Below the pieces are notes generated by a model. It did not search any database and had not been told where the DNA came from. It worked only from the letters and a program-made list of their open reading frames with translations. Both the position numbers and the translations under genes were made by a program. Positions 26,622-43,795 of a stretch of DNA of 59,971 nt are shown in pieces. Source of the stretch: a virus; the IMG/VR virus record IMGVR_UViG_3300025769_000114, positions 1 to 59,971 of that record. One strand, written 5' to 3'. Position 1 is the first letter of the stretch. Each line of letters opens with the position of its first letter.

Positions 26622-26636
26622 TGTTACCTCGTTAAA

Positions 26637-26671
26637 GTCCCGCCTTCGATCACCCTGACGGGGAAGGGTTA
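26637..26671 (-). promoter_or_regulatory. Pseudoknot RNA motif, copy 1 (next to HTH gene start)
   Basis: On the minus strand, a 4-bp stem ACCC/GGGU (26666-26669 with 26652-26655) encloses a loop whose CCCGUC can pair with downstream GGCGGG (26639-26644), forming an H-type pseudoknot. The invariant linker ends in CGAAGG. It ends about 16 bases before the start codon of the HTH gene, so folding could mask or expose its ribosome site. The pairing is seen in sequence; function is inference. Confidence 0.5.
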
Positions 26672-26943
26672 CCAAGCAGCCTTACTTGAAGGAATTACAC
26701 AAGCGTAGCTGCCGATCTTATTAGCCCCGCCTTCGGCTCCACCGGACGGGAACGGTGATGGAGGGTGTGATGAATACCCTGAGCCAATTCAAATTCAGTT
26801 GTGGCAGATGACCCGATTGGTGGTGACTCGGCTAGTCAACCGCCGCTGCGATCCACACTTCATCGGGCCTCTTTGTATTGCGGGAGATCAAAATCCCATG
26901 TTGGAGAGACTGATGCTGCCACTCACCTGCCCTTTTCTCGCAG
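26672..26943. other. Non-coding gap in recombination operon
   Basis: The gap between the PD-(D/E)XK gene stop and the HTH gene holds the two pseudoknot motifs and, between them, a GCAGC/GCUGC stem with an inner CCUU/AAGG hairpin. A 64-codon minus-strand frame (26832-27026) overlaps the neighbouring gene and lacks a convincing start. No tRNA cloverleaf was found. Confidence 0.45.
26720..26757 (-). promoter_or_regulatory. Pseudoknot RNA motif, copy 2
   Basis: Same layout as the copy near 26650. Stem CACCG/CGGUG (26753-26757 with 26740-26744) differs in sequence but still pairs, while the loop (UUCCCGUC) and the downstream partner (CGAAGGCGGG) are conserved. Compensatory change in the stem with a constant loop supports a real RNA fold. 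The two copies are about 86 bases apart. Confidence 0.5.
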
Positions 26944-29103: not shown

Positions 29104-29388
29104 TTAGTTTTGAGAACTGAATGGGTCTTTTTTGAACCCCGTAAATTTGTTTCGGTAATACTTCTTTGGGACGCTATAGAACTCTTCTAGAGCGGCCTCA
29201 ATCAGCATTGCTATTTCAATCGGCTCCAGCGCGTAAAACTGCGCCATCGGAAAGCCTGTTATGAAGCCCTTGGCCCAAGTGAACGAGGCTTGCCCGTTGT
29301 TGGTGGACATCTTCAGTGCTGGTATCTGCGTTATCTGGAACACAGCGACCATCTTTTCATAGGTTTCTTTGTCAGTCCCGATCATCAT
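29104..29388 (-). CDS. Hypothetical protein (94 aa)
   Basis: GAGGAAG precedes ATGATG; either ATG may be used. It is mixed alpha/beta with FITGFPMAQFYALEPIEIA and a basic C-terminus. No family recognised. It lies between the exonuclease and annealase genes. Confidence 0.5.
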   Translation of the reverse strand: MMIGTDKETYEKMVAVFQITQIPALKMSTNNGQASFTWAKGFITGFPMAQFYALEPIEIAMLIEAALEEFYSVPKKYYRNKFTGFKKDPFSSQN

Positions 29389-30443: not shown

Positions 30444-30725
30444 CTACTCAGCGTATTCGCACATGCTGATTCTGGAGTAGCCGCCCTTCTCTTCCTTACA
30501 GTTTTTCACCTTGTAAGAGATGGAAGCTTCCTTTGGCACGGTTTTGCGAAACTGAACCGCATAATTGTGAACACAGCGCACTACACTTGCCTTGCCCAGA
30601 CCTTCGTAGTCGTAAGGCACATCAAAATGCTGACCATGTTTTAGTTGCTTAATTGTTTCCATAAACTCAACCCGAAGCATGTACTCCTTCGATAGCGGTT
30701 TAGGCGCTTCTTCAATTTTGAACAT
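30444..30725 (-). CDS. Hypothetical protein (93 aa), paralogue-like to next upstream gene
   Basis: The start MFKIEEA is supported by the GCAGGAGTGCAAT leader directly before ATG; the longer frame to 30923 overlaps the upstream gene and lacks such a site. MLRVEFMETIKQLKHGQHFDV and the C-terminal GGYSRISMCEY resemble the layout of the 105-residue protein upstream, suggesting an old duplication. Possible small DNA-binding protein; function unknown. Confidence 0.55.
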   Translation of the reverse strand: MFKIEEAPKPLSKEYMLRVEFMETIKQLKHGQHFDVPYDYEGLGKASVVRCVHNYAVQFRKTVPKEASISYKVKNCKEEKGGYSRISMCEYAE

Positions 30726-30738
30726 ATTGCACTCCTGC
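30726..30738 (-). promoter_or_regulatory. Shared translation leader GCAGGAGTGCAAT, copy 2
   Basis: Thirteen bases directly before the ATG are identical to 29085-29097 before the annealase gene. The first twelve are also found before the primase-helicase ATG at 31860-31871. It includes the AGGAG ribosome site. Confidence 0.55.
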
Positions 30739-30747
30739 GTTTGTTCA

Positions 30748-31065
30748 TTAGGCGACTCGGTACACCCTGAGTCCACTTCGCCCTGAGTGGGGGTCTTCGT
30801 ATTTCCTGACAGAAAATTTCGTATCCATCGAAACATGAGAGCTTTCATCCTGTTGCAGTCTGCGTATTGCTGATCTGATTGCGTTGGTCTTTGCCTTGCG
30901 GTGATTTTCGTTATCAGTCGCAATAAAGAATGATTGGTTAACCCTCATCTGGCTGATGATTTCTTTGAAGTTGCTGGGAAGACTTTCGCCCGTACCCATC
31001 CGGTTGTCTTTTGGTAAGGGGACATTGTCCTCCAATACCAACAAACTGTCGTTTTGAATTGTCAT
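30748..31065 (-). CDS. Hypothetical protein, possible DNA-binding (105 aa)
   Basis: GGAG lies 9 bases before the ATG. LPSNFKEIISQMRVNQSFFI, then IRSAIRRLQQ, then GRSGLRVYRV are patterns of small phage proteins of unknown function, with a basic helix that may contact DNA. The start codon lies in a TCATAA-G-TTATGA palindrome (31062-31074). It is the first well-supported gene of the minus-strand recombination operon. Confidence 0.5.
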   Translation of the reverse strand: MTIQNDSLLVLEDNVPLPKDNRMGTGESLPSNFKEIISQMRVNQSFFIATDNENHRKAKTNAIRSAIRRLQQDESSHVSMDTKFSVRKYEDPHSGRSGLRVYRVA

Positions 31066-31154: not shown

Positions 31155-31544
31155 ATGTATCAGGAACGCAATACGTTGACAACAGTAGACTTGAAAATAT
31201 ATGGTGAACCCGCGTCGAAAGCGAACAGCAGAAAGCTTGTGACAATACGCGGTAGACCAGCGTTTATCAAAAGCAAGAAAGCTAGAGACTATGTAGCTAT
31301 GTTTGACAAGCAGTGCCCCGTCTTACAGGAATTGTTGGAAGGGGATTTGTCGGTAACAATAACTATTTTTTACGCAACAAGAAGACCTGACCTAGATGAA
31401 AGTGTAATCTTAGATTGTATGCAAGATAAGATTTACAAAAACGATAGGCAGGTCAAAGAGAAGCATATTTTCTGGGGACTAGATCGTGATAACCCAAGAG
31501 CAGAAATTACGGTTACAGAGAAAAATGATCTTGCAGACAGTTAA
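31155..31544 (+). CDS. RusA-like Holliday-junction resolvase (129 aa)
   Basis: RRPDLDESVILDCMQDKIYK followed by NDRQVKEKHI gives the RusA acidic set (D79, D81, D97), with PRAEITV at the C-terminal strand. N-terminal LKIYGEPASKANSRK also matches the family. RusA cuts four-way junctions, resolving replication or recombination branches before packaging. It starts a plus-strand operon divergent from the recombination operon. Confidence 0.82.
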   Translation: MYQERNTLTTVDLKIYGEPASKANSRKLVTIRGRPAFIKSKKARDYVAMFDKQCPVLQELLEGDLSVTITIFYATRRPDLDESVILDCMQDKIYKNDRQVKEKHIFWGLDRDNPRAEITVTEKNDLADS

Positions 31545-31758
31545 GGACTTAGACGGCAGCAGCGCCCGTGAGCGTATTGACGCCATCAAATTCTTTTACG
31601 ATGAAAAGCAAGCAGCAGGGATACGGGTAGAACACCCGCTTGAGTTGAGACGCAAGGCTCTTGATGCGGCGAGGCTTGATGGGGTGCAGAGAACAAGAGC
31701 CGTCAATGACTTAGTAGAAGAGATAGAGGAGGAATTCCTTAGGAATATGCCTACTTAG
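31525..31758 (+). CDS. Hypothetical helical protein (77 aa)
   Basis: The ATG at 31525 is inside the RusA 3' end; a GTG at 31486 is the alternative. The protein is helical and charged (SSARERIDAIKFFYDEKQAA, LRRKALDAARLDG). Its stop lies inside the first operator repeats, so it may be co-regulated with the next gene. Function unknown. Confidence 0.5.
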   Translation: MILQTVKDLDGSSARERIDAIKFFYDEKQAAGIRVEHPLELRRKALDAARLDGVQRTRAVNDLVEEIEEEFLRNMPT

Positions 31759-31824
31759 GCATCTTCCTAATTATTTTTAAGGTAATTTCTAAGCTAAGCA
31801 TTTGCTTGGCTTGGCATATTCCTA
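31740..31824. promoter_or_regulatory. Operator array 1, TAGG-N6-CCTA (3 sites)
   Basis: Inverted-repeat sites are TAGGAATATGCCTA (31740-31753), TAGGCATCTTCCTA (31756-31769) and TTGGCATATTCCTA (31811-31824). Spacer length is constant at 6 and the core is AT-rich. The array lies directly upstream of the primase-helicase. The same sites occur six times before the terminase large subunit. A phage-encoded regulator is likely. Confidence 0.65.
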
Positions 31825-31859
31825 AGACAACCTGACGGTTGATTTTAACCACAGCAAAA

Positions 31860-31871
31860 GCAGGAGTGCAA
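31860..31871 (+). promoter_or_regulatory. Shared translation leader GCAGGAGTGCAA, copy 3
   Basis: Twelve bases directly before the primase-helicase ATG match the leaders of two minus-strand early genes. It contains AGGAG and decides the start at 31872 over an in-frame ATG at 31839. Confidence 0.55.
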
Positions 31872-33629
31872 ATGCTAAATCGAGAAGACTTGGATTCAAT
31901 CCTAGTCCAGTACACCGAGGACACAAGAATTGTCTGCCCATCATGCGGCAGCAGCAGAAAGAAAAAAGGACAGAAAACTCTCAGCCTAACGATGGACGGT
32001 AACACCACGCTGTACTACTGCCACCATTGCGGGATAACAGGCAAGACCAAGCATCCTGACTACCGAGAGCCAGCGCCTAAGATCAGGGCAATATCTGTTC
32101 CCAAGACAACCAACAAAGAATTGATCAGCGAATATCTTTCGGGGCGGGGTATCAACCCAACACTGGCAGACAAGTATTCAGTGGTGAATGGTAAAAAATT
32201 CTTCCACGGCCACGGCGAACAAAGCGCCATCGGTTTTGTCTACGGCAACAAAGAAGCCGTGAAGTGGCGAAGCATAGAATCCAAAGCGTTCACTCAAGAC
32301 GGGGCGGCGAGAACCCTGTGGGGTGTTGAGCATATCTCGGACGATGCGACAGTCCTTGTGATTGTCGAGGGCGAAATGGATTTACTGGCGTGTGCCACAG
32401 CAGGGATCGACTACTGCGTTAGCGTTCCCAACGGCGCACCGATCAAAGTCTCAGATAAGAAGCCAAGCCCAGAGGAGGACAATAAGTTTTCTTATGTCTG
32501 GGCGGCAAAGGATTTGATTGAGCGGGTAGATAGAGTGGTCATTGCTGTTGATGGCGATGACGCTGGCGTTGCTCTTGCTGAAGAACTGGCGAGAAGAATC
32601 GGAAGGGCTAAGTGCTGGGCTGTTGACTGGCCTGATGAATGCAAAGATGCAAACGATGTTCTGCAAAAGCTTGGGCCAGAGGCGCTCGCTTCTGCGATAG
32701 ATCAGGCAGCGGCTATGCCGTTGGAGGGCGTTTATTCTGCGGATGACTATGCGCTAGACATTGCCAACCTCTACGACAAGGGACTGGTGGGCGGTCTGTC
32801 TACTGGGCTGGCGTCTGTGGATAAGCTGTTTACTGTGGTGCCGGGGCAATTGTCTGTGGTCACTGGTTTGCCGGGATCTGGCAAGTCAGAGTTTATTGAC
32901 CAGATAATGGTTAATCTAGCGCAGTCTGAGGGGTGGCGGTTTGCTGTTGCCAGCTTTGAGAATCCGCCTCCGCTGCACATTGCCAAGCTCAGCGAGAAGT
33001 ATGTGGGCAAGCCGTTCTTTGAAGGGATGCCTGACAGAATGAGCAGGGTTGAGTCGGTGTCTGCGATGAAATGGGTCAACGATCACTTCCTGTTCTTAGA
33101 GCAGCGCGGCGGCGAGGCTGCGACCATCGACAGTATCTTAGACCGAGCTAGGCAAGCTGTTATGAGACTAGGCATCAGAGGCTTAGTCATTGACCCGTAC
33201 AATTACATCTCACAAAGCAAGTCGGTGGATAACGAGCATCAGGGCATCAACGAAATGCTCACTCGGCTTGTTGCTTTTGCCAGAGCCAATCAGATACACA
33301 TTTGGTTTATTGCTCACCCAGCCAAAATGCCAACCAATCCTGACGGCACAACAGCAGTGCCAAAAGGAATGAACATCTCAGGCAGCGCAGCATTCTTTGC
33401 TAAGGCTGACTTGGGGATCACGGTACACCTCAGTCCTGAGAAGGCCAGCGAAATACATGTCTGGAAGGTTAGGTTCAAGTGGATTGGAGCAACGGGCGGC
33501 ACCGTCTTAGATTATGACATACCGACTGGGCGCTATAGCGAATTGAAGCTAGAGGACATGCCTGATCCATTTACCGCTAGGGTTCCAGACTGGCATGAGA
33601 CAGACGATGACTGGGACATTGAAACCTAA
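31872..33629 (+). CDS. Primase-helicase, T7 gp4/Twinkle-like (585 aa)
   Basis: An N-terminal zinc ribbon (C22, C25, C50, C53) is followed by a TOPRIM domain with E167 in VIVEGEMD and D227/D229 in IAVDGDDAG, then a RecA-type DnaB-like helicase with Walker A GLPGSGKS at 332-339. It primes and unwinds the phage genome. Length is normal for the bifunctional T7 gp4 type. The phage has no visible DNA polymerase, so it probably hands over to the host replisome. Confidence 0.88.
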   Translation: MLNREDLDSILVQYTEDTRIVCPSCGSSRKKKGQKTLSLTMDGNTTLYYCHHCGITGKTKHPDYREPAPKIRAISVPKTTNKELISEYLSGRGINPTLADKYSVVNGKKFFHGHGEQSAIGFVYGNKEAVKWRSIESKAFTQDGAARTLWGVEHISDDATVLVIVEGEMDLLACATAGIDYCVSVPNGAPIKVSDKKPSPEEDNKFSYVWAAKDLIERVDRVVIAVDGDDAGVALAEELARRIGRAKCWAVDWPDECKDANDVLQKLGPEALASAIDQAAAMPLEGVYSADDYALDIANLYDKGLVGGLSTGLASVDKLFTVVPGQLSVVTGLPGSGKSEFIDQIMVNLAQSEGWRFAVASFENPPPLHIAKLSEKYVGKPFFEGMPDRMSRVESVSAMKWVNDHFLFLEQRGGEAATIDSILDRARQAVMRLGIRGLVIDPYNYISQSKSVDNEHQGINEMLTRLVAFARANQIHIWFIAHPAKMPTNPDGTTAVPKGMNISGSAAFFAKADLGITVHLSPEKASEIHVWKVRFKWIGATGGTVLDYDIPTGRYSELKLEDMPDPFTARVPDWHETDDDWDIET

Positions 33630-34041
33630 GCAGGTCAACGACATAGGAACGGCGGCACTACACCGCCGTCATGTCATCAGCTTGGAGCAAGCCGACAGTG
33701 GTGTTGGCCGCGCTCGCATCAATGACCAGATGTTTATTGACAAGTTATTACTTAAAAAAGCAATCACAATTCGGCACCACCAAGCGGCAGAGCGAATACT
33801 TTCGCAAGCTGTTCAGGCGGGTGTTTATCTGAAATCGCCAGACATGACCTCCACGTTTGGCGGCAGCGGTCACAGCAACCGTAACGACAGGCTGCTCATG
33901 CTCAGCAGAACCTTCCGAAAAATTACAAAAGAATTTGGGGAGCCAGCCGCCACCCTCACCTACCTGATGATAGTAGAAGACCAGCCCACCGACTCGCAGT
34001 CAGATATCGACACGCTTATATCAGTCCTAGAGTTTGTATAA
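33607..34041 (+). CDS. Hypothetical protein (144 aa), primase operon
   Basis: The start MTGTLKPKQ lies inside the primase-helicase 3' end; an in-frame ATG 12 bases upstream is also possible. It is basic and helical (INDQMFIDKLLLKKAITIRH, HQAAERILSQAVQAG). Position suggests a replication accessory or loader-type role, but no family was recognised. Confidence 0.5.
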   Translation: MTGTLKPKQVNDIGTAALHRRHVISLEQADSGVGRARINDQMFIDKLLLKKAITIRHHQAAERILSQAVQAGVYLKSPDMTSTFGGSGHSNRNDRLLMLSRTFRKITKEFGEPAATLTYLMIVEDQPTDSQSDIDTLISVLEFV

Positions 34042-34153
34042 GAAAACCAACCTGTTGTCTTGAGTACCCACAGTCGCGTTGTTGGCATGTTTTGTCTGGG
34101 CAGCCGACCCCTCGAAAAATCCTCTGAAAGCCTTATGTTTATTGGGGTTACGA

Positions 34154-34179
34154 TTACGCAAAAATGCGTAAATTTTTTA
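34154..34179 (+). terminator. Rho-independent terminator of the primase operon
   Basis: Perfect 7-bp hairpin TTACGCA / TGCGTAA with an AAAA loop, followed by ATTTTTT, 112 bases after the last plus-strand gene. Confidence 0.7.
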
Positions 34180-34242
34180 TGGTTGGGTAAAAGGGTTTAC
34201 TGATTGGGTAGGGATGTAGGATTGCAGGACGCAAGCCTTATC

Positions 34243-34258
34243 TATTGACTGGTCAATA
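34243..34258. repeat. Palindrome TATTGAC-TG-GTCAATA
   Basis: A perfect 7+7 inverted repeat in the convergent intergenic region between the primase operon and the minus-strand operon. The 2-base spacer suits a protein-binding site better than a hairpin. Role unknown. Confidence 0.4.
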
Positions 34259-34272
34259 AAAGGGAAGGGGGG

Positions 34273-34307
34273 AACCCCTAACCAAGCGGGGGCGCTTGGC
34301 TGGGGTT
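34273..34307 (-). terminator. Strong hairpin, probable terminator of the minus-strand accessory operon
   Basis: The inner stem CCAAGCG/CGCTTGG (7 bp, loop GGGG) is extended by AACCCC/GGGGTT over a small internal loop. On the minus strand it is followed by C/T-rich sequence (CCCTTTTATT). It lies 52 bases beyond the last minus-strand gene. Confidence 0.6.
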
Positions 34308-34358
34308 ATGAAAACGCAGGAGTCCGATAAGTAGAACGTAAAATGCTTTAGCGGTCAA

Positions 34359-34496
34359 CTACGGACATTCGGGACATAACAAGTACATACGGCCATCATC
34401 GTCCTGCTCTTCGTGCATCTCAGCACCGCAGTCATCGCAGATGTCGGCGTCGAACTCGTAAGGGTTATGGAAAGAACTATCGGGGCGCTCAATCAT
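34359..34496 (-). CDS. Tiny zinc-ribbon protein (45 aa)
   Basis: The ATG overlaps the TGA of the upstream gene (TGATG). Two cysteine knuckles, CDDC and CPEC, about 18 residues apart predict a zinc ribbon; the rest is very acidic (EEQDDDGR). It is the last gene of the minus-strand operon, followed by the hairpin at 34273-34307. Function unknown. Confidence 0.6.
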   Translation of the reverse strand: MIERPDSSFHNPYEFDADICDDCGAEMHEEQDDDGRMYLLCPECP

Positions 34497-34729
34497 CAGT
34501 GAAGCTCCCCGTCTGGGCAGGTGCATTCCTCATCCTGCTTTACCAGAAAGTCGCAATAATCAGACGCTGCCTGTACACAAACCAGCGATGCCTCTTGCGG
34601 ACTGTCTACGCCATAAGCCGCCATGATGATGCCCATGATCACAGACATCTGCCACGGGCCTTCTATCTCGCTAGGCAGTGCCGACATGATTGATTGCTTC
34701 ACTTTTTCAAACTCTTCTTGTGAGTTCAT
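34496..34729 (-). CDS. Hypothetical acidic protein (77 aa)
   Basis: GGGAG lies before the ATG. It is helical (EEFEKVKQSIMSALPSEI), with a hydrophobic middle (SVIMGIIMAAYG) and three C-terminal Cys (YC, CTC). It is coupled at both ends to neighbours. No family recognised. Confidence 0.55.
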   Translation of the reverse strand: MNSQEEFEKVKQSIMSALPSEIEGPWQMSVIMGIIMAAYGVDSPQEASLVCVQAASDYCDFLVKQDEECTCPDGELH

Positions 34730-34730
34730 A

Positions 34731-35129
34731 TTATCTCCCTGTGTTGATTTTGCTTAGCTCTTCTTTTGTTGCGGGGCGGTATCCCATTTCCTCTTCTGTA
34801 TAGAGGTCGAAAACAGAAGGTATGGAATCATCTGCGTTCCAGCAATCAAGGCAGCGGCCTTGTAAGGTGTGCTTAGGGTTGGCGTAATCAGATGGAATCC
34901 GCACCCCGCACTTTTTACATACAGGCACTTGCAAGACGCTATCCTCTTCAGCCTCATCAGTGCCTGAAACAAACCAAAACGGAACGAACAACAGCATCGT
35001 TGCCATCGGGAAAGATATTGCAGGGTATAGCCCAACGCCTTCGCGCATGTACTCAAACCCTAGAAACGCCATAGCTCCAGAGAGCGCAGCGCAAGACAAC
35101 GAAACCGACACCGTGATATATGGGTGCAT
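34731..35129 (-). CDS. Membrane-anchored zinc-ribbon protein (132 aa)
   Basis: GGAG is placed 8 bases before the ATG. Two membrane segments (VSVSLSCAALSGAMAFLGF and ISFPMATMLLFVPFWFVSG) are followed by a cytoplasmic zinc ribbon (CKKC ... CLDC) and an acidic tail (DLYTEEEMGYRPATKEEL). The anchor-plus-zinc layout suggests a membrane-bound host-interaction protein; no homologue was recognised. Confidence 0.55.
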   Translation of the reverse strand: MHPYITVSVSLSCAALSGAMAFLGFEYMREGVGLYPAISFPMATMLLFVPFWFVSGTDEAEEDSVLQVPVCKKCGVRIPSDYANPKHTLQGRCLDCWNADDSIPSVFDLYTEEEMGYRPATKEELSKINTGR

Positions 35130-35423
35130 GTCTATTCTCCAACAAATAATTAAATGAATGCCAAGGCTTTACTGGGACTTATTGGTTTGGCCCATGAGGT
35201 CGCATCTCTGTCGCTCACCACAGGTTGGTCTTCCCTGTGCGTGCCCTGCACCATACCCGTACCCATACCCGCGCATCGTGCAAGGTGACTCGCGGCGGTG
35301 GGTTTGCATTACTTCAATGTTCTATCTCCCGTAATGATGCGGATTGCATCGGAGTGCCTACCAAGGCAGACACTGCGCTGAAATCAGAGAGCAGTTTTGC
35401 ATCGTACTCAGGATGGTTCGCGG
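35130..35423. other. Gap without a well-supported gene
   Basis: Only a 35-codon minus-strand frame (35169-35276, starting MRGYGYGYGAG) is present, without a ribosome site. No clear terminator, tRNA or repeat was found. It may be a long leader of the 132-residue gene. Confidence 0.35.
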
Positions 35424-35654
35424 CTACTGCCGCTGTTGGAAGTTATGTACCAGCACCATCATGAACTGGCCGTTAGTGAGTTTGTATGGCAGATCTTTTT
35501 CGTACTCAGCTTTTGCCTCGCGAAACGCCGCTGCACATTCATCTTTCACTAACAGGCTGTGGCCTGTTTCATCGGCGTTCTTGGGTGGCCTACCGCGTCC
35601 ACGGCTCAAGGGCAGTTCACCCCTAGTGCCATCAGCATTTATTTTCACGTTCAT
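35424..35654 (-). CDS. AT-hook-like small protein (76 aa)
   Basis: The start MNVKINAD (35654) has GGAG upstream; an ATG at 35672 is alternative but lacks a ribosome site. The segment RGRGRPPKN is an AT-hook-like minor-groove motif. The C-terminal helix-rich part (DECAAAFREAKAEYEKDLPY) could dimerise. A DNA-binding regulator is plausible. Confidence 0.55.
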   Translation of the reverse strand: MNVKINADGTRGELPLSRGRGRPPKNADETGHSLLVKDECAAAFREAKAEYEKDLPYKLTNGQFMMVLVHNFQQRQ

Positions 35655-35683
35655 ATCTACGCTCTCCGTCATTTTGATGTTAA

Positions 35684-35697
35684 GGGGCCGAAGCCCC
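35684..35697 (-). terminator. UUCG-tetraloop hairpin after the VWA gene
   Basis: GGGGC-UUCG-GCCCC followed by UUAA, overlapping the VWA gene stop codon. It has the same stem and loop as the hairpin at 37942-37955. With a short U-run, it may be a weak terminator or a 3'-end stabiliser. Confidence 0.55.
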
Positions 35698-37028
35698 TAG
35701 GTTACTTTGATGATTTCACCAAAAGGCTCACAGCCTCGCCACATAGGGTCGCGGTCAGTGGTTGCCCAGAACACCGGATAGTCAGGCATGGTGAAGTCGT
35801 GCCGTGCATTAGGCCCAACCTCGCCCCAGCCATCGGTGAAGTAGATCATCGCGCATGGTTCGATATCGTTGCGCTCAACATAGTTGAACGGTGGATTGAA
35901 CTCAGTACCGCCGAACTCAGGAATCTTGAGCGTTAGCTCTTCATGCCTGTCGAACTCCTCGACACCGCACACTACATCGTGGCAGTAAATGACCACAGTC
36001 TTGATAGGCTGCACCTCGTCAATGATGTCCTGCACATGCCCAGCATTCATATCCAACTCTTCCTGAGTCATGGAGTAGCTGACATCCTGCACCACAACCA
36101 ACTCACCGTTAGGCTCGCGGTTTTGCGTGGGCAGTATCAAGCCTTGCGATAGCAGCCGACGATTGGGTCGAGCATAGGTATGCTCAGACAAAACGAACTG
36201 ATCAAACGCAGACTTGAGGTGCTGGTGCCAAGGCACCGGATCACCAGAGAATCCGCTGATGATCTGGTCAACACTCGCGCCTCGACCAGAGCCACTGTCG
36301 CGGATCTTCTCATGGGCCTTAGCAGCCTCAAACACTTGCGAAGCGATCTCGCGCTCAGCTTCAGCCTTAGCGGCCTCAGACATACCCTGCCCATCGTCAC
36401 CAGCAGCCTCCCATACCTCGCCCCAAGGCGCGTCAGGATCAGCAGGGCCATCACCAGCAGCGGAGCCACTGTCGCCCTCACCGTCGCCCTCAGCGCCGCC
36501 AGAGCTAGGCTGGTCGCCGTCTTGGGTGCCGTTGTCGCCAGCCTGTGCCTGACCTTCGCCATCGTCGCACTGCTCGCCCTCGCCTTCATCGTTGCTGGGC
36601 TGGTCACCCTCAGACTGAGGCTGTGGCTTGCTGATAATTGTGTAGATCTGCTCAGCAGACATACCAATGTAGTCGGTGCTGTAGAGGCCACCGAAAACAT
36701 CGAACCCGTCACGCACTAGCGCGTAGTTGATTGCGTAGTCGGCAGCTTCGTTCCACAGCTTGTGGTCACGGTTACCCTTGCGTAGGTGATGGAACCCATC
36801 AACGTGCATCACCTCGTGGGCAATCACGGTCATGATGAACCGCACACCGTGTTCCTTTTCCTGCCCGACAACCCACTGCTCATTGAAGTGGATAGCCTTG
36901 CCATCGGTTGCCATCGTCGCAGTCTTGGTGCTGGGGATCAGCTCCAGTTGATATGCGCGGAAGGCAAAGTAGGGGAAGGTTTTCAGAAGGCGCTTGCGCG
37001 CCTCTAGAATGATCTGCATAGCATCCAT
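35697..37028 (-). CDS. VWA-domain putative metallopeptidase, DUF2201-like (443 aa)
   Basis: The start MDAMQIIL has GGAG 8 bases upstream; a longer frame to 37094 overlaps the previous gene. HEVMH at 71-75 with E94 is a zincin motif. The middle (about 140-240) is a Gly/Asp/Gln-rich acidic linker. The C-terminus is a VWA-like domain with MIDAS residues D315, S317, S319, T375 and D399. This joint architecture is the DUF2201 type and works with MoxR-like ATPases. The partner ATPase is two genes upstream. Phage N4-like genomes also carry AAA/VWA pairs, of unclear role. Confidence 0.78.
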   Translation of the reverse strand: MDAMQIILEARKRLLKTFPYFAFRAYQLELIPSTKTATMATDGKAIHFNEQWVVGQEKEHGVRFIMTVIAHEVMHVDGFHHLRKGNRDHKLWNEAADYAINYALVRDGFDVFGGLYSTDYIGMSAEQIYTIISKPQPQSEGDQPSNDEGEGEQCDDGEGQAQAGDNGTQDGDQPSSGGAEGDGEGDSGSAAGDGPADPDAPWGEVWEAAGDDGQGMSEAAKAEAEREIASQVFEAAKAHEKIRDSGSGRGASVDQIISGFSGDPVPWHQHLKSAFDQFVLSEHTYARPNRRLLSQGLILPTQNREPNGELVVVQDVSYSMTQEELDMNAGHVQDIIDEVQPIKTVVIYCHDVVCGVEEFDRHEELTLKIPEFGGTEFNPPFNYVERNDIEPCAMIYFTDGWGEVGPNARHDFTMPDYPVFWATTDRDPMWRGCEPFGEIIKVT

Positions 37029-37041
37029 AACTATTACTCCG

Positions 37042-37923
37042 TTAATCCCATAGGCCAGTGAGGTTATCCACAATGGACTTGGCAGTGTCAGCAACAGCCT
37101 TGCGCTCAGTCTTGGACTCGCGCAGCTTGGCTGGGTCTAGGTCTGCAAGCTTGGTCAGCAGGGCGTTGCCAGCTTGGGTCAGCTTGGGGTCACCCGTGAT
37201 GTTAAGGCTGGGCAGCACAGCAGCCAGTTCCTCAATCTTTTCGACAGTGTTGTCGGTGAACTTGCTCGCACGCTTGGCACCGTCAGCCTTGATGCCGTGA
37301 CGCTCTAAGCCGTCGATCAGAGCCTGTAAGGTATCGACTACACGCTCATGCACAGACTCAGCAGCAGCCTCGACGCGCTGAGTGATACGGGCCTCGGTGT
37401 CGGCCTTTATCTTGGCAATCTTTTCTGCGGGTAGGTTGACTCTGATATCGCCAGAATCAGGCATAGCGCGAAGCTCATAGCTGAACTGGTACTTGCTAAT
37501 GATGTACTCAGGCGAGGGGTAGTCGTTAATGTCGAAAGACAAGCCGGAGTTGATTGCAGCATCTTTAAGAATTTTAGGCCACTCGCGCACGACCTCGCGC
37601 TTTAGCTCTTCTGCATAGTCAACTTTCTTGATCCACTCAGCCTCAAAGGTTTCGATGTTCTCGACAGGCATAAGCCTGACCCCATCTTCCCAAGGTACGC
37701 TCAGCGGGTTGAGGACTGTATTGCGTAGTTGCCCAACAATCCTACTCAAAGCTTTGATTGGCGCGGCCTCTAAAAGCCGTCGTGTAACGGTGAAGCTTTT
37801 CGGGTTGCCCTGTTGGCGAGCGGCCACATCAGCAGACAGTTCTGCGTCTCTTGTTTTGTTAGCGAACTTGGTGATTGTTGCTGTAACCAGCATTGCGTTG
37901 TTTTGGATCTTATCCATAGTCAT
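37042..37923 (-). CDS. Helical protein of the MoxR-VWA cluster (293 aa)
   Basis: The start MTMDKIQ (37923) has GGAG just upstream; the frame continues to 38094 inside the ATPase gene without a site. The protein is mostly alpha-helical, with a central alpha/beta part (RLMPVENIETFEAEWIKKVD) and a basic C-terminal helix pair. It lies between the ATPase and VWA genes and is likely the third part of their complex. No specific family can be confirmed. Confidence 0.6.
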   Translation of the reverse strand: MTMDKIQNNAMLVTATITKFANKTRDAELSADVAARQQGNPKSFTVTRRLLEAAPIKALSRIVGQLRNTVLNPLSVPWEDGVRLMPVENIETFEAEWIKKVDYAEELKREVVREWPKILKDAAINSGLSFDINDYPSPEYIISKYQFSYELRAMPDSGDIRVNLPAEKIAKIKADTEARITQRVEAAAESVHERVVDTLQALIDGLERHGIKADGAKRASKFTDNTVEKIEELAAVLPSLNITGDPKLTQAGNALLTKLADLDPAKLRESKTERKAVADTAKSIVDNLTGLWD

Positions 37924-37941
37924 TGACTCCGAAATAGTAAA

Positions 37942-37955
37942 GGGGCCGAAGCCCC
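37942..37955 (-). terminator. UUCG-tetraloop hairpin between ATPase and helical-protein genes
   Basis: GGGGC-UUCG-GCCCC followed by UUUA on the minus strand, 8 bases beyond the ATPase stop and upstream of the next gene's ribosome site. It could be a partial terminator that sets stoichiometry, or mRNA end protection. Confidence 0.55.
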
Positions 37956-37963
37956 GTTGGGGT

Positions 37964-39055
37964 TTAGCGAGTGGCCTTGTGGGCCACATACTCAGGGGTT
38001 GATAGCAGGTCTGCATCGCGGCGCGTTGCCAGCGCCCAGAACACCTCGACCAGTTCTTCGTTGATGCGCTTGAGAACAACCACTGCATTGCCAAGGTTGT
38101 CAGTGGTCACCCGTGCAGCCAGCGCAGCGGTCACTGCATACTGAGTAGTGATCTCATTCGGCAGCGGCACGTTGTGCGGATCTGACAGAAACAAGTTGAT
38201 GTCTGGCAGGTTACGCATGGTGCGGACAAACGCCATAAACTCAGCGGCAGCGCCGAATCCTACGGCACCCTCAATGGCGATCTGCTCAAGATCAGCAGGT
38301 AAATCGTCACTGAGAATGTCAGACACTGATTGCCAGCCGCGAGGTGTAGCGATAGCCACCCTGTCTTTAGGTGTGCCGCCATCGGGGAACTCGTGAATGA
38401 GTCCGGCCTGATCACCTGATGCCTCACCGCGAAACTTCAGGAACGCAACCACAAGCGGGTTAGCGCCAGTGTCTGCAAGGTAGTCGCTGGTCTCAGCAGC
38501 GGACGGCACAACATCCAAGTGATACTTGAATCTTGTACTTACGGCAGCGTCGATGCGGCCAGACACACCAGCACCGTCATTGGGTCGATTAGATGCAGCG
38601 ATAACAAACCAGCCCTTGGGCAGGATGTAGTCGCCAAGCCGACCATCGTTTAGTAGCTGGTAAGACGCGAATTGCGCTGATTGAGTGCCAAGCATTAGCT
38701 CATCCATAAGCAAGCAGCCCTCTGGGCCGTCGCGCTCCACGTTGGGTAGCCATGATGGCGTAGACCATTCGGTTGTGGATGCTTCGCCGTCGCCGCTGAT
38801 GTACGGGACACCGCGAGTATCGACTGCATCCAACTGTGACAGGCGTACATCAATCAGGCCTATCGGTCTGTCGAGAGTCTTGGAAAGCTTTTCCATAGCC
38901 TGACGGACGATTGAGGACTTAGCTGCCGCGTAGATGCCCCACAGAAATATAGGCAACTGGCGCTTGTCGCTAGACAGTTGAGAGGTCGCATGTGCGAGTA
39001 TTAGTTGTGCAGCCTGTGAAGGGCTGACTTTCGGTGCGTTTATTGATTTAGTCAT
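37964..39055 (-). CDS. MoxR-like AAA+ ATPase with degenerate P-loop (363 aa)
   Basis: LWGIYAAAKSSIVRQ is at the Walker A place (G40 to S47), but both inner Gly are Ala (GIYAAAKS instead of GPPGxGKS). Walker B LLMDEL (D118, E119) and sensor-1 asparagine N156 in AASNRPND are intact, as is the arginine-containing GRIDAAVSTRF. This places it in the MoxR/CobS-like AAA+ group, chaperones that act with VWA proteins. Upstream 5' UTR begins at the cleavage site of the hammerhead at 39091-39151. Confidence 0.78.
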   Translation of the reverse strand: MTKSINAPKVSPSQAAQLILAHATSQLSSDKRQLPIFLWGIYAAAKSSIVRQAMEKLSKTLDRPIGLIDVRLSQLDAVDTRGVPYISGDGEASTTEWSTPSWLPNVERDGPEGCLLMDELMLGTQSAQFASYQLLNDGRLGDYILPKGWFVIAASNRPNDGAGVSGRIDAAVSTRFKYHLDVVPSAAETSDYLADTGANPLVVAFLKFRGEASGDQAGLIHEFPDGGTPKDRVAIATPRGWQSVSDILSDDLPADLEQIAIEGAVGFGAAAEFMAFVRTMRNLPDINLFLSDPHNVPLPNEITTQYAVTAALAARVTTDNLGNAVVVLKRINEELVEVFWALATRRDADLLSTPEYVAHKATR

Positions 39056-39090
39056 AACTAGTCAATGCTCCAAAGTTAAGGTTGTTGGTT

Positions 39091-39151
39091 ATCCAAGACC
39101 GCCCAGAGGGCGGTTTCACGCTGGTCACCAGCCAGCACTCGTCAGTTGGAT
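39091..39151 (-). ncRNA. Type I hammerhead ribozyme 1
   Basis: Minus-strand parts in order: stem I 5' strand AUCCAA (39146-39151), core CUGACGA (39139-39145), stem II GUGCUGG/CCAGCGU, core GAAA (39114-39117), stem III CCGCCC/GGGCGG with UCU loop (39099-39113), cleavage triplet GUC ending at 39097, and stem I 3' strand UUGGAU (39091-39096). Predicted cleavage lies between 39097 and 39096. The first two base pairs of stem II are G-U and U-G wobbles, which could slow cleavage. It sits between the 69-residue gene and the ATPase gene. Confidence 0.87.
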
Positions 39152-39360
39152 TAGGTCTCTAGGGTTGCAGCAGGGTCGAACTTCCATTGATCTGCAAGCT
39201 TGTAATAGAGGCGAGCAAACTGTTTGCGCTTTGCAATGTTGAACGATGGAGTCTCAACATGGGGGTTGCGGTCTCCATCCGCCTTTGCCAGCGCCTCAAG
39301 CAAATCCAATACCTCAGATCGGGCTTGTTCTTGCGGTGTGTGTCCGTACTTGTTTCTCAT
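39151..39360 (-). CDS. Hypothetical protein (69 aa) between the two ribozymes
   Basis: GGAG lies before the ATG. It is a helical basic protein (SEVLDLLEALAKAD, KRKQFARLYYKLADQWKF). Its TAA stop is immediately at the first base of hammerhead 1, so ribosomes ending here would cover the ribozyme's 5' strand. No family recognised. Confidence 0.58.
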   Translation of the reverse strand: MRNKYGHTPQEQARSEVLDLLEALAKADGDRNPHVETPSFNIAKRKQFARLYYKLADQWKFDPAATLET

Positions 39361-39385
39361 TGGTTATGCTCCGTAGTTGGAATGG

Positions 39386-39610
39386 TTAGTCAGAACCCCA
39401 AGGTCTGGCGTTCAGCTTTTTAAGTCGGGCACCAGACACCGTGGCATCCATGACGGCACCTGACCAAGCACGATTGGTTAGCTCTACCAAATGCTCGCCG
39501 TTGTGGCCTTTCCAGAATGCGGTGCCTGTTGTTACCCATGTCTGATGCTTGAGTCCTTTAACTGGCACAACCACATCGGTGTCCACTCTTATCTGTTGCT
39601 TTTCGTTCAT
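39386..39610 (-). CDS. Hypothetical protein (74 aa) downstream of hammerhead 2
   Basis: ATG is preceded by GAGGATAAAG. The mRNA made by hammerhead 2 cleavage would carry a 24-base 5' UTR with this site. The protein is beta-rich (VDTDVVVPVKGLKHQTWV) with a basic C-terminal region (GARLKKLNARPWG). Function unknown. Confidence 0.58.
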   Translation of the reverse strand: MNEKQQIRVDTDVVVPVKGLKHQTWVTTGTAFWKGHNGEHLVELTNRAWSGAVMDATVSGARLKKLNARPWGSD

Positions 39611-39626
39611 CTTTATCCTCAGTCGG

Positions 39627-39693
39627 TTTTCCAAGACCGTGCCTCCTACACGGTTTCACGCCACTAACCAAGCGGCACTCATCAGTTGGAAAA
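39627..39693 (-). ncRNA. Type I hammerhead ribozyme 2
   Basis: Minus-strand parts in order: stem I 5' strand UUUUCCAA (39686-39693), core CUGAUGA (39679-39685), stem II GUGCCGC/GUGGCGU, core GAAA (39654-39657), stem III CCGUG/CACGG with UAGGAGG loop (39637-39653), cleavage triplet GUC ending at 39635, and stem I 3' strand UUGGAAAA (39627-39634), a perfect 8-bp stem I. Compared with hammerhead 1, stems II and III differ by compensatory changes while the core is conserved. Predicted cut is between 39635 and 39634. Confidence 0.9.
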
Positions 39694-39933
39694 GGTTAGG
39701 TTATCGGTGAACAGCTTGAGTTCTGCGTGTTCCCAGCGGTCTAGCCAATCGACCTGAGCCTTAACCTGCGGCCAGCGCAGGGTGTGGCCTGTCTGCTTTT
39801 CGTAGTCGGCAAGTATCTGATCGGACAACTTGCCAATGCTCAGAATCCATTGCAGCCGTTCACGGTTGCTCAGGTTGGTGCGGTCTAGGTTCTGCTTGAT
39901 GTCATCAATGTCTGAGTTGTACTGCTCAATCAT
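39682..39933 (-). CDS. Hypothetical protein (83 aa) upstream of hammerhead 2
   Basis: The start overlaps the upstream stop. It is helical and acidic (DIDDIKQNLDRTNLSNRERL, QVDWLDRWEHAELKLF). Its TGA stop codon is inside the CUGAUGA core of hammerhead 2, so translation termination and ribozyme folding compete for the same bases. No family recognised. Confidence 0.58.
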   Translation of the reverse strand: MIEQYNSDIDDIKQNLDRTNLSNRERLQWILSIGKLSDQILADYEKQTGHTLRWPQVKAQVDWLDRWEHAELKLFTDNLTFSN

Positions 39934-40328
39934 TTGGTGAGTCCCTCGTTGATTGCATAGTCGGCAGCTTGGTTGTATTGACGCATCTGCATATGCGCCC
40001 GATGCGCTGCTTCGTGCTTTTCAATGAAATCAACGGCAGCGATCATCTGCTTGGTCGCGTTCTCAAGCTCGCGGCGAGGCATGTATGACTCAAGCTCTAA
40101 AGCTTTGTCGTGCCATATCTCCTCTTGACGCAGATGGATTCTCCGCTTGGCAGCCATTGCACTGGTGTCCTGATCTCCCGCCCACTCAGCGGAGTCAACG
40201 TGGAAATCGACACGGCGTTGTGCCTTCACCCAATCAACGACGGTGCGCTGATGCTTGGGGTTGATAGCCTTGATTGCGTTCGCAACGGCCAAGTAATCAT
40301 CTATTTTTGGTTGCTGTTGTTTGGTCAT
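39930..40328 (-). CDS. Hypothetical His-rich helical protein (132 aa)
   Basis: A strong GGAGG lies upstream, within the previous gene. The protein is helical, with AVDFIEKHEAAHRAHMQMRQ, a zincin-like arrangement of His and Glu (EAAHRAH) that may bind metal, and YNQAADYAINEGL near the end, a segment like NEAADYAINYAL of the VWA metallopeptidase at 35697. A metal-binding or truncated peptidase-like role is a guess. Confidence 0.55.
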   Translation of the reverse strand: MTKQQQPKIDDYLAVANAIKAINPKHQRTVVDWVKAQRRVDFHVDSAEWAGDQDTSAMAAKRRIHLRQEEIWHDKALELESYMPRRELENATKQMIAAVDFIEKHEAAHRAHMQMRQYNQAADYAINEGLTK

Positions 40329-40330
40329 GG

Positions 40331-40477
40331 CTAGAAGCCTCCCATTGAGATAGCGCCGTGGGCGCGGGTTGTTGTTTTGATCTTGGCAACGATTGCACGC
40401 TTGCGTTCGATCAGTCGGTTAAGGAATAGGCGGCGGCGATTGTGTCGCAGTACCCGTTGTCGTTCTTGGTGTGTCAT
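40331..40477 (-). CDS. Small highly basic protein (48 aa)
   Basis: GGAG is 7 bases before the ATG; the stop lies in the next gene's ribosome site. The sequence is rich in Arg/Lys (RQRVLRHNRRRLFLNRLIER) and ends GAISMGGF, so it probably binds nucleic acid. It is the first supported gene after a long structured leader. Confidence 0.55.
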   Translation of the reverse strand: MTHQERQRVLRHNRRRLFLNRLIERKRAIVAKIKTTTRAHGAISMGGF

Positions 40478-40707
40478 CACTCACTCCATAGTTCAGTTCA
40501 TCAATAGCCACTCAGTAAGTGGTCATTGGTGAGCCGAAGCTCTGCCGCATCCCAGCTCGTTGGGCATTGTCAGGATCAAAGGCCGACTGAGTAGCATTGC
40601 CCTGTACAGGGACGAGCCTCACCCAGCCGTTCAACCTCAGACCTTCACCAATGCTTTAGTTCTGGCTGCTGCGGCAAACAGCGCGTGTCTTGGTCTGCAT
40701 GTGTGAC

Positions 40708-40728
40708 TGCCCATTGATTGTCGGTACG
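40708..40728. repeat. 21-bp direct repeat, unit 1
   Basis: TGCCCATTGATTGTCGGTAC followed by G, identical to 40794-40814, start-to-start distance 86 bases. Confidence 0.7.
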
Positions 40729-40793
40729 GCACACTGCTCGCCTCTCACGCCCCAGAACATTTCCCCGTCTGGTAGGTGCATCCGATGCCGCAT

Positions 40794-40814
40794 TGCCCAT
40801 TGATTGTCGGTACG
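40794..40814. repeat. 21-bp direct repeat, unit 2
   Basis: Exact copy of 40708-40728; flanked by GGTGCATCCG on both sides (40774 region and 40817 region), so the duplication unit may be longer. Confidence 0.7.
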
Positions 40815-40871
40815 AGCGGTGCATCCGGTGGATGGCGGGATTGGGTACGGCTCCCCGTCGCCGTTGAGTGG

Positions 40872-40901
40872 ATTATACGCACAGGTGAACGCAGTACGCA
40901 A
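40872..40901 (-). promoter_or_regulatory. Candidate promoter of the accessory operon
   Basis: On the minus strand TATAAT (40872-40877) lies 18 bases after TTGCGT (40896-40901), a weak -35 with a perfect -10. It would start transcription near 40865, making a leader of about 390 bases before the 48-residue gene. Confidence 0.35.
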
Positions 40902-42014
40902 TACTCAGTAACCAATAAATGTTTAACGGTTGTAGATACAACGAATGGCTCAGAGAAAAATTACAGGGGCGTTGATGCAGGCCACGAGCAAAGTCGATTT
41001 GACTATTAGATGAAACGCGCACGCGAATAGCAGATAGCAGTACTCAATACAAGTATTGACAAGCAAATAAGTAGCAAATAGTCAGTAACGAGTAGAAAGT
41101 ACTTAGTAATCAACAACTTAGATACGAATTCCCGTCTAAGCGTTTTTCACGATGAACTGGTGCATATGTATGGCTTAGGCAAAACAGGCCTTAGAACGCA
41201 ATTCTGGGCGTCCTATCGGCAAGTGCGAAATGTCAAGCTTTATCTATGTACTGGTTACTGGGTACTGGTGGCAGACGGCCAAGCTGGGCGGCGGTATGAT
41301 TCCGGCAAACAGGCAGCACGGTATCGGAACATGGGCAAACCCAAGTCAGGACTCACAGCTAAACAGCGGCACTTTGCATTGGCATTGGGCAGCGGTGCAG
41401 GCATGACATTAAGTGATGCATACAGGGAGGCATACGATTGCAAGAATATGAGCGCGGCAGCCATCAGGACGGAAGCCAGCAGGCTTGCAGCGAACCCTGC
41501 CATTACCCTATTGATTGAGCAGCAAAGGGAGCGGACTCAGCGTGCAGCATCGGCCTCTGAGGTCGGAGACCGTGACCGTGTTTTACAGCGCCTGCGGCAG
41601 TGGATGGATGATGCCGAGCCTACCGATACAAACAAGCTGAAGGCTGCACAGCTACTTGGTCAGACCGTGGGCATGTTCAAGGATGTGGTAGAGACCAACA
41701 GCGGTGACCGTGCCAGCACCGAGGTAGCCGCCGAGATAGAACGACGCTTGGCAACACTGCAAGCAGCAGCCGAGCCTAAGCCTAAGCCTGACAGTCTGCA
41801 CTAGTGGCAACAGTACACCATACGCAAACGGTTACAGTACGCTGCACACAATACGCTAACCGTTGTACACCCCCTGCCTCTCAGCGAAATTGTCTATCAT
41901 TTTGCATACCCCTACCCCCCCTATAGCCAGTTGCGTGCCACCGTCTATATACATAGTAAAACGCTCAAATAATTACCTAAAAAATATATAGTCCGTAAAC
42001 AGTACGCAGTACAC
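40891..42014. repeat. Dispersed CAGTAC repeats, iteron-like
   Basis: Units with CAGTAC plus a nearby ATAC lie at 40891-40912, 41037-41050, 41811-41829, 41834-41856, with a variant at 41999-42014. They flank the terminase small subunit gene. A palindrome TCAATAC-AA-GTATTGA lies at 41044-41059, and an 8+8 inverted repeat AACGGTTA/TAACCGTT at 41827-41864. The gap 40902-41330 holds no other feature. Origin or packaging-region role is inference. Confidence 0.4.
41331..41804 (+). CDS. Terminase small subunit (157 aa)
   Basis: The start MGKPKSGLTAKQRHFAL is chosen because homology-like sequence begins here; the frame is open to 41160 but that part looks non-coding. SDAYREAYDCKNMSAAAIRT, then EASRLAANPAITLLIEQQRE is the typical HTH-plus-helix pattern of Terminase_2-type small subunits, which recognise pac/cos DNA. 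It is followed by the operator/promoter region and terL. Confidence 0.75.
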   Translation: MGKPKSGLTAKQRHFALALGSGAGMTLSDAYREAYDCKNMSAAAIRTEASRLAANPAITLLIEQQRERTQRAASASEVGDRDRVLQRLRQWMDDAEPTDTNKLKAAQLLGQTVGMFKDVVETNSGDRASTEVAAEIERRLATLQAAAEPKPKPDSLH

Positions 42015-42099
42015 TTCCTTTTTTTGCAGGGAAATGCCCTAGGAATCCTAGTGCCTAAAAATTTTTCACAAAAAATTCAAGCCGGGTCTTGCCTCATCC

Positions 42100-42126
42100 T
42101 TGTCAAGTGTGTAACTTCTGTATAAT
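42100..42126 (+). promoter_or_regulatory. Candidate sigma70-type promoter for the late operon
   Basis: TTGTCA (42100-42105), 15-base spacer, TATAAT (42121-42126). The spacer is short but the -10 is perfect. It lies just upstream of the six operator sites, so a bound regulator would cover the start of transcription. Confidence 0.45.
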
Positions 42127-42141
42127 CAGTTATTCCTCTCT

Positions 42142-42273
42142 TAGGAATATGCCTAGGTAGGCATGTGCCGATTAGGCAAATGCCGATTAAGTAGATCCGT
42201 AAGTTTTTTTATATGGATTACTAAGTAGGTAGATTCCTAGGCTAGTCATATTCCTAAGCTAGGTATATTCCTA
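42142..42273. promoter_or_regulatory. Operator array 2, TAGG-N6-CCTA (6 sites)
   Basis: Sites are at 42142-42155, 42158-42171, 42173-42186, 42226-42239, 42243-42256 and 42260-42273. Examples: TAGGAATATGCCTA, TAGGCATGTGCCGA, TAGGTATATTCCTA. Half sites and the 6-base spacer are constant. Spacing of 15-17 bases places neighbours about 1.5 turns apart. The last site ends 10 bases before the terL start. The region 41805-42141 upstream has the CAGTAC repeats and TAGG/CCTA fragments. Confidence 0.7.
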
Positions 42274-42283
42274 AGGGAGTTTT

Positions 42284-43795
42284 ATGTCGGTTCTTGACAG
42301 AGTAGACCCCAAACTTCTAAAGCAGATACCCAATCTTCCTGAGCATGAGCAGAGGGAGATACTTGCTCTCATAGAAGAGCTAGAAGAGGCTGAGGGTAAA
42401 GAGCAAGCCCGTGAAGGGTTTATGCCGTTTATTAAACGTGTGTGGCCTGCTTTCATTGAAGGGCGTCATCATAAGATCATGGGCGCTGCTTTTGAGCGGG
42501 TTGCCCGTGGTGAGTTGAAGCGGCTCATTATCAATATGCCGCCAAGGCACACTAAGTCTGAGTTTGCATCGTACTTACTCCCTGCTTGGTTTCTGGGTAA
42601 CTTCCCAGAGAAGAAGATCATTCAGACCGCACACACTGCTGAATTATCAGTGGGGTTTGGTCGTAAGGTTCGTAACCTAGTAGACAGTGATGATTACAAG
42701 AGCGTTTTCCCGAATCTAGGGTTACGCGCTGATTCAAAGGCTGCTGGACGGTGGAGTACTACTCAGGGCGGCGAATACTTCGCTATCGGTGTTGGCGGTG
42801 CTGTGACTGGTAAGGGCGCGGATCTTTTGATCATTGATGACCCTCACAGTGAGCAAGAAGGCCAAAGTGCCGATCCGGGCGTGTTTGATAAGGTTTACGA
42901 ATGGTATACCTCTGGGCCTAGACAGCGTCTACAGCCGGGAGGCGCGATCATTGTTGTAATGACACGCTGGCACAAGCGGGATCTTACTGGGCAGATCATC
43001 AAGTCTTCTGTTCAGCGGTCTGGTACAGATGAATGGGAGGTTATTGAGTTCCCTGCAATCATGCCGTCAGGCAAGTCGCTATGGCCTGAGTTCTGGCCTT
43101 TACCTGAGCTAGAGTCGCTTAGAAACGAATTACCAGCGCCCAAGTGGAACGCACAGTACCAACAGAACCCCACATCAGAAGAGGGCGCGTTGGTTAAGCG
43201 TGAATGGTGGCGCGAATGGGACAGTGATGTTCCGCCAGCTTGTGAGTTTATTATTCAGTCTTGGGATACGGCATTCCTCAAGACTCAGCGTTCAGACTTC
43301 TCAGCCTGTACAACGTGGGGCGTTTTTTACCACCCAGACGATACGGGCACTATGCAGGCAAACATAATCCTGCTGGACGCGCACAAAGAACGCCTAGAGT
43401 TCCCTGAGCTTAAAAAGAAAGCTTTTGAGTTATACGGCTACTGGGAACCAGATGCTTGTATCGTTGAAGCTAAAGCGGCAGGTACGCCGTTGATCTTTGA
43501 GTTACGGGCTATGGGCATCCCTGTTGCGGAATACACGCCGTCTAGGGGTAACGATAAGATTAGCCGTGTAAACGCGGTATCGGATCTATTTGCCTCTGGT
43601 AACGTGTGGCGGCCTAATACTAGGTTTGCAGAAGAGGTTGTAGAAGAGTTTGCATCGTTCCCTGCTGGTGAGCATGATGACCTTGTAGACTCATCTACAC
43701 AGGCGTTACTGCGGTTCAGACAGGGTGGGTTCTTACGATTACTCAGTGATGAAGAGGATGAGCCTTTTTATCCAAGAAAGGCCAGTTATTATTAA
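42284..43795 (+). CDS. terL: Terminase large subunit (503 aa)
   Basis: GGGAG lies before the ATG. ATPase: Walker A-like MPPRHTKS (85-92) and Walker B LLIIDDP (ending 187). Nuclease (RNase H fold): D329 in QSWDTAF, E396 in IVEAKAAG, D466/D467 in EHDDLVDS. This motor cuts concatemers and pumps DNA into the prohead through the portal encoded downstream. Full length. The stop overlaps the next ATG. Confidence 0.95.
   Translation: MSVLDRVDPKLLKQIPNLPEHEQREILALIEELEEAEGKEQAREGFMPFIKRVWPAFIEGRHHKIMGAAFERVARGELKRLIINMPPRHTKSEFASYLLPAWFLGNFPEKKIIQTAHTAELSVGFGRKVRNLVDSDDYKSVFPNLGLRADSKAAGRWSTTQGGEYFAIGVGGAVTGKGADLLIIDDPHSEQEGQSADPGVFDKVYEWYTSGPRQRLQPGGAIIVVMTRWHKRDLTGQIIKSSVQRSGTDEWEVIEFPAIMPSGKSLWPEFWPLPELESLRNELPAPKWNAQYQQNPTSEEGALVKREWWREWDSDVPPACEFIIQSWDTAFLKTQRSDFSACTTWGVFYHPDDTGTMQANIILLDAHKERLEFPELKKKAFELYGYWEPDACIVEAKAAGTPLIFELRAMGIPVAEYTPSRGNDKISRVNAVSDLFASGNVWRPNTRFAEEVVEEFASFPAGEHDDLVDSSTQALLRFRQGGFLRLLSDEEDEPFYPRKASYY

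Follow-up and report, generated by a model that had tools for sequence, protein, structure and literature searches.

Two dense arrays of one short palindrome mark two operons in the viral DNA analysed here (a stretch of 59,971 nucleotides, the window). One array fills the interval between a promoter and terL, the first gene of the late operon, while the other lies about 10 kb away, directly before the gene for a primase-helicase. We consider it about 70% probable, from comparative sequence, that both arrays are cooperative operators of one sequence-specific regulator, probably phage-encoded, which would control the replication and late operons. In particular, we infer that the regulator targets DNA rather than RNA, represses rather than activates and belongs to the phage rather than to the host. 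The position of the sites in gene leaders, the second array, the cooperative spacing and the matched turnover of the motif in relatives lead us to a regulator that would hold back both operons. Since the terL array shares its motif with the primase array, this would be a two-operon switch and not control of terL alone. A preliminary description of this DNA had suggested cooperative binding that blocks the start or elongation of transcription; for clustered, phased sites in a leader, a cooperative DNA-binding regulator that would block initiation or early elongation is still the best reading, but its scope is two operons.

Two arrays and a late promoter

The 14-bp palindrome has the consensus TAGGNATATNCCTA, and six copies with 0-2 mismatches each lie within 42142-42273 (table 1). 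Their start-to-start distances are 16, 15, 53, 17 and 17 bp, and 10 bp separate the end of site 6 from the ATG of terL at 42284. All six inverted repeats of the preliminary description were recovered in this way, as were the spacing it had given (mostly 15-17 bases, with one gap of 53) and its 10 bases between the last site and terL. The ribosome-binding site AAGGGAG (42273-42279) abuts site 6. It had also been suggested that the sites may bind in two groups of three: two groups are indeed present, but the weak seventh site at 42188 lies in phase, 15 bp past the third, so that the layout becomes 4+3 with a 38-bp gap. This seventh site, like the second array (31740-31824), had been omitted from the description. 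A fourth left-hand site was called in the relatives L005 and G007 too. In the terL array, the midpoints of site pairs 1-6, 2-5 and 3-4 agree within 2 bp.

Table 1. Positions of the sites, genes and promoter discussed in the text (window coordinates, except for the last row).
Feature	Position	Strand	Basis or remark
DUF7303-like small protein, candidate regulator, first gene of leftward early operon	30748..31065	-	sub-cut-off Pfam match
gpX, small gene between RusA and primase array, candidate regulator	31486..31758	+	last codons within array site 1
Second array, TAGGNATATNCCTA motif	31740..31824	.	sites 31740, 31756, 31811; weak sites 31778, 31795
Primase-helicase gene	31872..33629	+	phrog_239 DNA primase/helicase, E 3.5e-86
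Late promoter, TTGTCA 42100-42105, 15-bp spacer, TATAAT 42121-42126	42100..42126	+	sequence and recurrence in relatives
Operator-like site 1, TAGGAATATGCCTA	42142..42155	.	0 mismatches to TAGGNATATNCCTA
Operator-like site 2, TAGGCATGTGCCGA	42158..42171	.	2 mismatches to TAGGNATATNCCTA
Operator-like site 3, TAGGCAAATGCCGA	42173..42186	.	2 mismatches to TAGGNATATNCCTA
Weak in-phase seventh site, TAAGTAGATCCGTA	42188..42201	.	3 mismatches; 15 bp after site 3
Array centre, T-run TTTTTTT and ATCC/GGAT inverted repeat reaching into weak site	42202..42225	.	sequence
Operator-like site 4, TAGGTAGATTCCTA	42226..42239	.	1 mismatch to TAGGNATATNCCTA
Operator-like site 5, TAGTCATATTCCTA	42243..42256	.	1 mismatch to TAGGNATATNCCTA
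Operator-like site 6, TAGGTATATTCCTA	42260..42273	.	0 mismatches; ends at ribosome-binding site
terL, first late-operon gene	42284..43795	+	tblastn to annotated terminase large subunits, 55% identity to HTVC027P
XRE/cI-type HTH gene	G024:6188-6901 (L193)		directly behind CTGTTAnTAACAG array

Such a concentration of sites far exceeds chance. Matches to TAGGNATATNCCTA with at most one mismatch number seven in the window against 0.05 expected from dinucleotide shuffles, and none of 100 shuffles reached seven. All seven fall within the two arrays (four before terL, three at 31740-31824), and no strong site was found elsewhere in the window. When palindromes were sought de novo in the 320 bp that precede terL, the score was 14.0, compared with a shuffle maximum of 6.0.

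The TTGTCA/TATAAT promoter that had been noted upstream of the terL array is present, and most related lineages have the arrangement TTGTCA, exactly 15 bp, TAnnAT before terL or before the first gene of the late operon. A generic promoter scan omitted it because the scan allows only 16-18 bp spacers. Judged by the usual distance from a -10 element, transcription would begin near 42133, placing the first site near +9. That is, the putative operators would begin about 9 bp past the predicted start and occupy the rest of the leader as far as the ribosome-binding site.

Several other features accompany this region. A noncoding block in the terS-terL interval (41905-42075) shows strong conservation across lineages, unlike the array that follows, which turns over; the block contains a C-run, TATATACATAGTAAAAC, CTAGGAnTCC and AAAAAATTTT, and its AT-rich part, AAAAAAATTCTGCAAAA, lies directly 5' of terL in HTVC027P and psg01. 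This block is possibly a cos/pac or terminator element. Upstream of terS, a direct repeat CCCATTGATTGTCGGTACG is found at 40710-40728 and 40796-40814.

Relatives also keep the primase array, each lineage with its own motif. The first operator-like site of this array doubles as the last codons of gpX in the TAGG and TAAGTAG lineages. Between this array and the start codon of the primase gene (31825-31860), a small stable hairpin (AACCTGACGGTT) is followed by ATTTTAA, and L103-L105 have the same arrangement at the equivalent position (hairpin CCCCTTCGGGG in L103). Immediately 5' of the primase array, or of the gene itself, G017-G025 carry an A-run and then a hairpin, which is terminator-like for leftward transcription.

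Conserved places and changing motifs in relatives

Relatives were viral contigs, mostly fragments; searches with TerL and primase gave 160 loci, to which a second primase query added more. We applied the palindrome finder independently to two 320-bp regions, one preceding terL and the other preceding the primase gene, each with dinucleotide-shuffle controls. Both arrays hold their position in related contigs while the palindrome itself varies between lineages (e.g. TAAGTAGnCTACTTA, TAGKACnGTMCTA, AGAACGTTCT, CGATAGCTATCG and others).

Within one genome, the separate searches of the two arrays returned identical or closely similar motifs, and they did so in several specificity classes. These classes, whose names were assigned partly by eye from the de novo output and which come from related rather than independent sequences, comprise a TAGG-type motif (G000, G002, G031, G007 and G010), TAAGTAGnCTACTTA (G011 and G013), TAGGACnGTCCTA (G018 and G019) and CGTATATATACG (G023). 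Close variants make up the pairs of G001 (TCGAAAGCTTTCGA and CGATAGCTATCG) and G022 (TAGGACnGTCCTA and TAGTACnGTACTA), and a weaker pair related to TAAGTAG was found in G015. Arrays of AGAACGTTCT stand before the primase gene in L231-L239 and are matched before terL in G035, where terL runs from 13186 on the minus strand with sites at 13203, 13219 and 13306, and where the primase array has sites at 24682 and 24697. G034 has a single exact site at each of the two places. A primase array is lacking in G024 and G025, and G016 has a late array with none just before the primase gene.

The motif class follows overall relatedness. TerL identity fully separates genome pairs with the same motif from pairs with different motifs, and for this reason we dropped the proposal that the motif class goes with the early module rather than the structural module; the data show gradual drift and not module exchange. 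Conservation of the repeats in homologous phages, proposed earlier as a check, therefore has a divided answer: position and layout are kept, but the motif is kept only among close relatives (TerL identity of at least 95%). No comparable array was found in the named relatives HTVC027P, psg01 and DSL-LC04 (TerL identity 55-59%), and none was seen on inspection of the region upstream of the MinM2 primase. The terS-terL region of HTVC027P (L165) has runs of a 7-bp repeat around AAGCTTG at 16497-16618 and 17394-17730.

The anatomy of the arrays is similarly regular. The usual array consists of two clusters, from 2+2 to 4+3 sites, with a start-to-start spacing within clusters of mostly 13-18 bp that is nearly constant inside a lineage. 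In relatives the centre of the array is a T-run or a small stem-loop. Across 13 primase-array centres of one group, the longest stem has a mean of 6.5 bp, compared with 3.1 bp in shuffles, and the stems differ in sequence (e.g. ATCAACT/AGTTGAT, CCCAACT/AGTTGGG and TTTTTCTC/GAGAAAAA). In the relative L006/G002 (TerL 98-99% identical), a left site has been lost and a right site gained with the 17-bp phase retained. L029 has a plain tandem array.

Proposed operators and the alternatives

In the mechanism that we propose, dimers would occupy neighbouring 14-bp palindromes spaced 15-17 bp apart, the two clusters could be bridged across the array centre, and the bound regulator would halt RNA polymerase during initiation or directly afterwards. 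Repression at this stage is the likeliest mode, with an elongation roadblock or activation being less economical readings of the same site layout. By binding the second array too, the putative regulator would switch the replication and the late (packaging and structural) operons together. Regulator and operators would evolve together, such that specificity differs by lineage and the two arrays of a genome stay matched; the matched turnover points to one fast-evolving phage switch protein. Two kinds of observation sit uneasily with operators: a central stem-loop whose stems change is not explained by operators alone, and G016 has its late array without one just before the primase gene.

An RNA element is an unlikely alternative. 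The terL leader (42136-42276) folds as one long hairpin (z -6.75) covering the ribosome-binding site, with AAGGGAG paired to CUCUCUU, and the leaders of several other lineages fold likewise. Here, the long leader hairpin or a bound central stem-loop would hide the ribosome-binding site or control elongation, with the palindromes as its arms, and the central stem-loops, kept while their stem sequences change, would suit this. However, partner sites pair no better than non-partner sites once the palindrome itself is considered (0.776 versus 0.758, p = 0.09), and with this failed test of arm co-variation we rejected the long RNA hairpin as a conserved feature even though the folds exist. Moreover, the long fold is lost or weakened in L006/G002 while the phased sites stay, the L029 array is plain tandem, and conservation extends to the positions at the palindrome centre, which an RNA site would place in a hairpin loop. 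A search of Rfam with 31400-42400 gave three sub-threshold matches only. Because the arms show no co-variation past that of the palindrome itself, RNA is the weaker rival, and this result, L006/G002 and L029 together favour DNA operators; the regulator acting on RNA that had been offered as an alternative is accordingly not favoured. The kept central stem-loop with changed stems would still allow the mechanism an RNA or cruciform component.

The arrays could also be replication origins, i.e. two iteron arrays with an AT-rich centre whose initiator has lineage-specific recognition. In lambda, the iterons of ori are bound with the specificity of the O protein, lambdoid iterons show motif turnover, and SPP1 has two sites, oriL and oriR. 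The palindromic repeats, the AT-rich neighbour (a T-rich or hairpin centre), the lineage-specific motifs, the two sites per genome (as in SPP1) and the primase-helicase gene beside one array are all in keeping with this. Yet both arrays lie in gene leaders, in every lineage examined the terL array stands between a conserved late promoter and the first late gene, and no skew extreme or switch occurs at either array in the window, which makes origins quite improbable.

A packaging site, in which the small terminase subunit would bind the late array in the terS-terL interval, is the least credible alternative and was rejected as the main reading. The location between terS and terL speaks for it, as does the likeness to P1 pac, where recognition elements form two groups around a centre. 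Unlike in P1, the same motif is arrayed a second time 10 kb away, before the primase gene, and the late array follows the late promoter and not the terminase genes: it stays with the promoter even in G018 and G023, whose late operons begin with a gene other than terL. Alignments between lineages before terL are good up to the promoter and are lost behind it.

The putative regulator and comparable systems

Among the candidates for the regulator, the DUF7303-like protein and a 94-aa protein (29104-29388) are found in every genome with a primase array, as far as the contigs reach, and neither family occurs in G024 or G025. Each genome has two or three paralogous DUF7303-like small proteins, with whose genes the leftward early operon begins (30444-31065 and the corresponding region of relatives). 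Two further proteins are nearly as widespread, with exceptions: gpX is missing from G032, where the array is present, and the 33595-34041 protein is missing from G015 and G032. No recognized DNA-binding domain was found in these conserved candidates (DUF7303-like, 94-aa, gpX and 33595 proteins), and Pfam and PDB searches with gpX and the DUF7303-like family gave no useful match. An HTH_23 protein (26352-26675) and an AT-hook protein (35424-35672) were rejected as the regulator, since tblastn confines both to near relatives.

HTH_3 scored above the cut-off in only one of 26 records, the distant relative G024; the window and most relatives gave no such gene. No tyrosine integrase was found in nine records (which may be fragments). 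In G024, a CTGTTAnTAACAG array in the terS-terL interval lies directly before an XRE/cI-type HTH gene (HTH_3, E 2e-8), an independent sign that such arrays serve DNA-binding repressors. This gene also bears on the very unlikely case that the same operator system answers to a host-encoded regulator whose specificity follows the host. That the search found no obvious phage regulator would fit a host protein, and the motif classes, which follow phage phylogeny, possibly reflect host range. On the other hand, G024 has its own XRE gene behind its array, and the matched turnover of exactly two arrays better fits a phage-encoded partner.

In behaviour, the nearest known system is the repressor and stoperators of cluster A mycobacteriophages (L5, Bxb1), in which 13-bp directional sites are distributed genome-wide, the repressor is identified and the phages are capable of lysogeny (PMC6550527). 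Stoperator motifs vary from lineage to lineage, drifting with relatedness (PMC6550527). As in cluster A, each genome studied here has many copies of one short site and presumably one regulator, the motif drifts between related phages, and sites may lie downstream of promoters. Unlike in cluster A, the sites are palindromes, the strong ones are confined to two dense arrays rather than being directional and scattered, the regulators are candidates only, and a tyrosine integrase was not found.

Lambda cI binds as cooperative dimers to adjacent palindromic operators at a phage promoter. The present arrays resemble those of cI and other multi-operator repressors in having adjacent palindromic operator-like sites at a phage promoter, with cooperative dimers predicted here. 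They differ in that the sites lie in the leader, number five to seven per array and form two arrays, in a window with no HTH_3 gene. As expected of multi-operator repressors in general, copies of one site lie at a few operon leaders and exceed chance. The best explanation of these sequence patterns is that the arrays work like a multi-operator phage repressor system, for which we claim no membership of a named family; no description of such arrays was found in the literature searched.

To our knowledge, regulation is unknown in most uncultivated phages. Here, comparative sequence alone defines a two-operon regulon, several motif specificity classes and a conserved late promoter, and this definition enables a directed search for the regulator. 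More speculatively, it is possible that one rapidly evolving regulator of a new family acts throughout a clade of uncultivated phages and, through two matched arrays (each of two operator clusters round a nucleic-acid hairpin), determines the order of replication and late expression; its specificity would change as that of immunity repressors does and could also exclude co-infecting relatives. If the proposed switch is real, phages without a detected integrase or cI-type repressor would offer, in the matched turnover of their motifs, a natural series for the joint change of a regulator and its sites.
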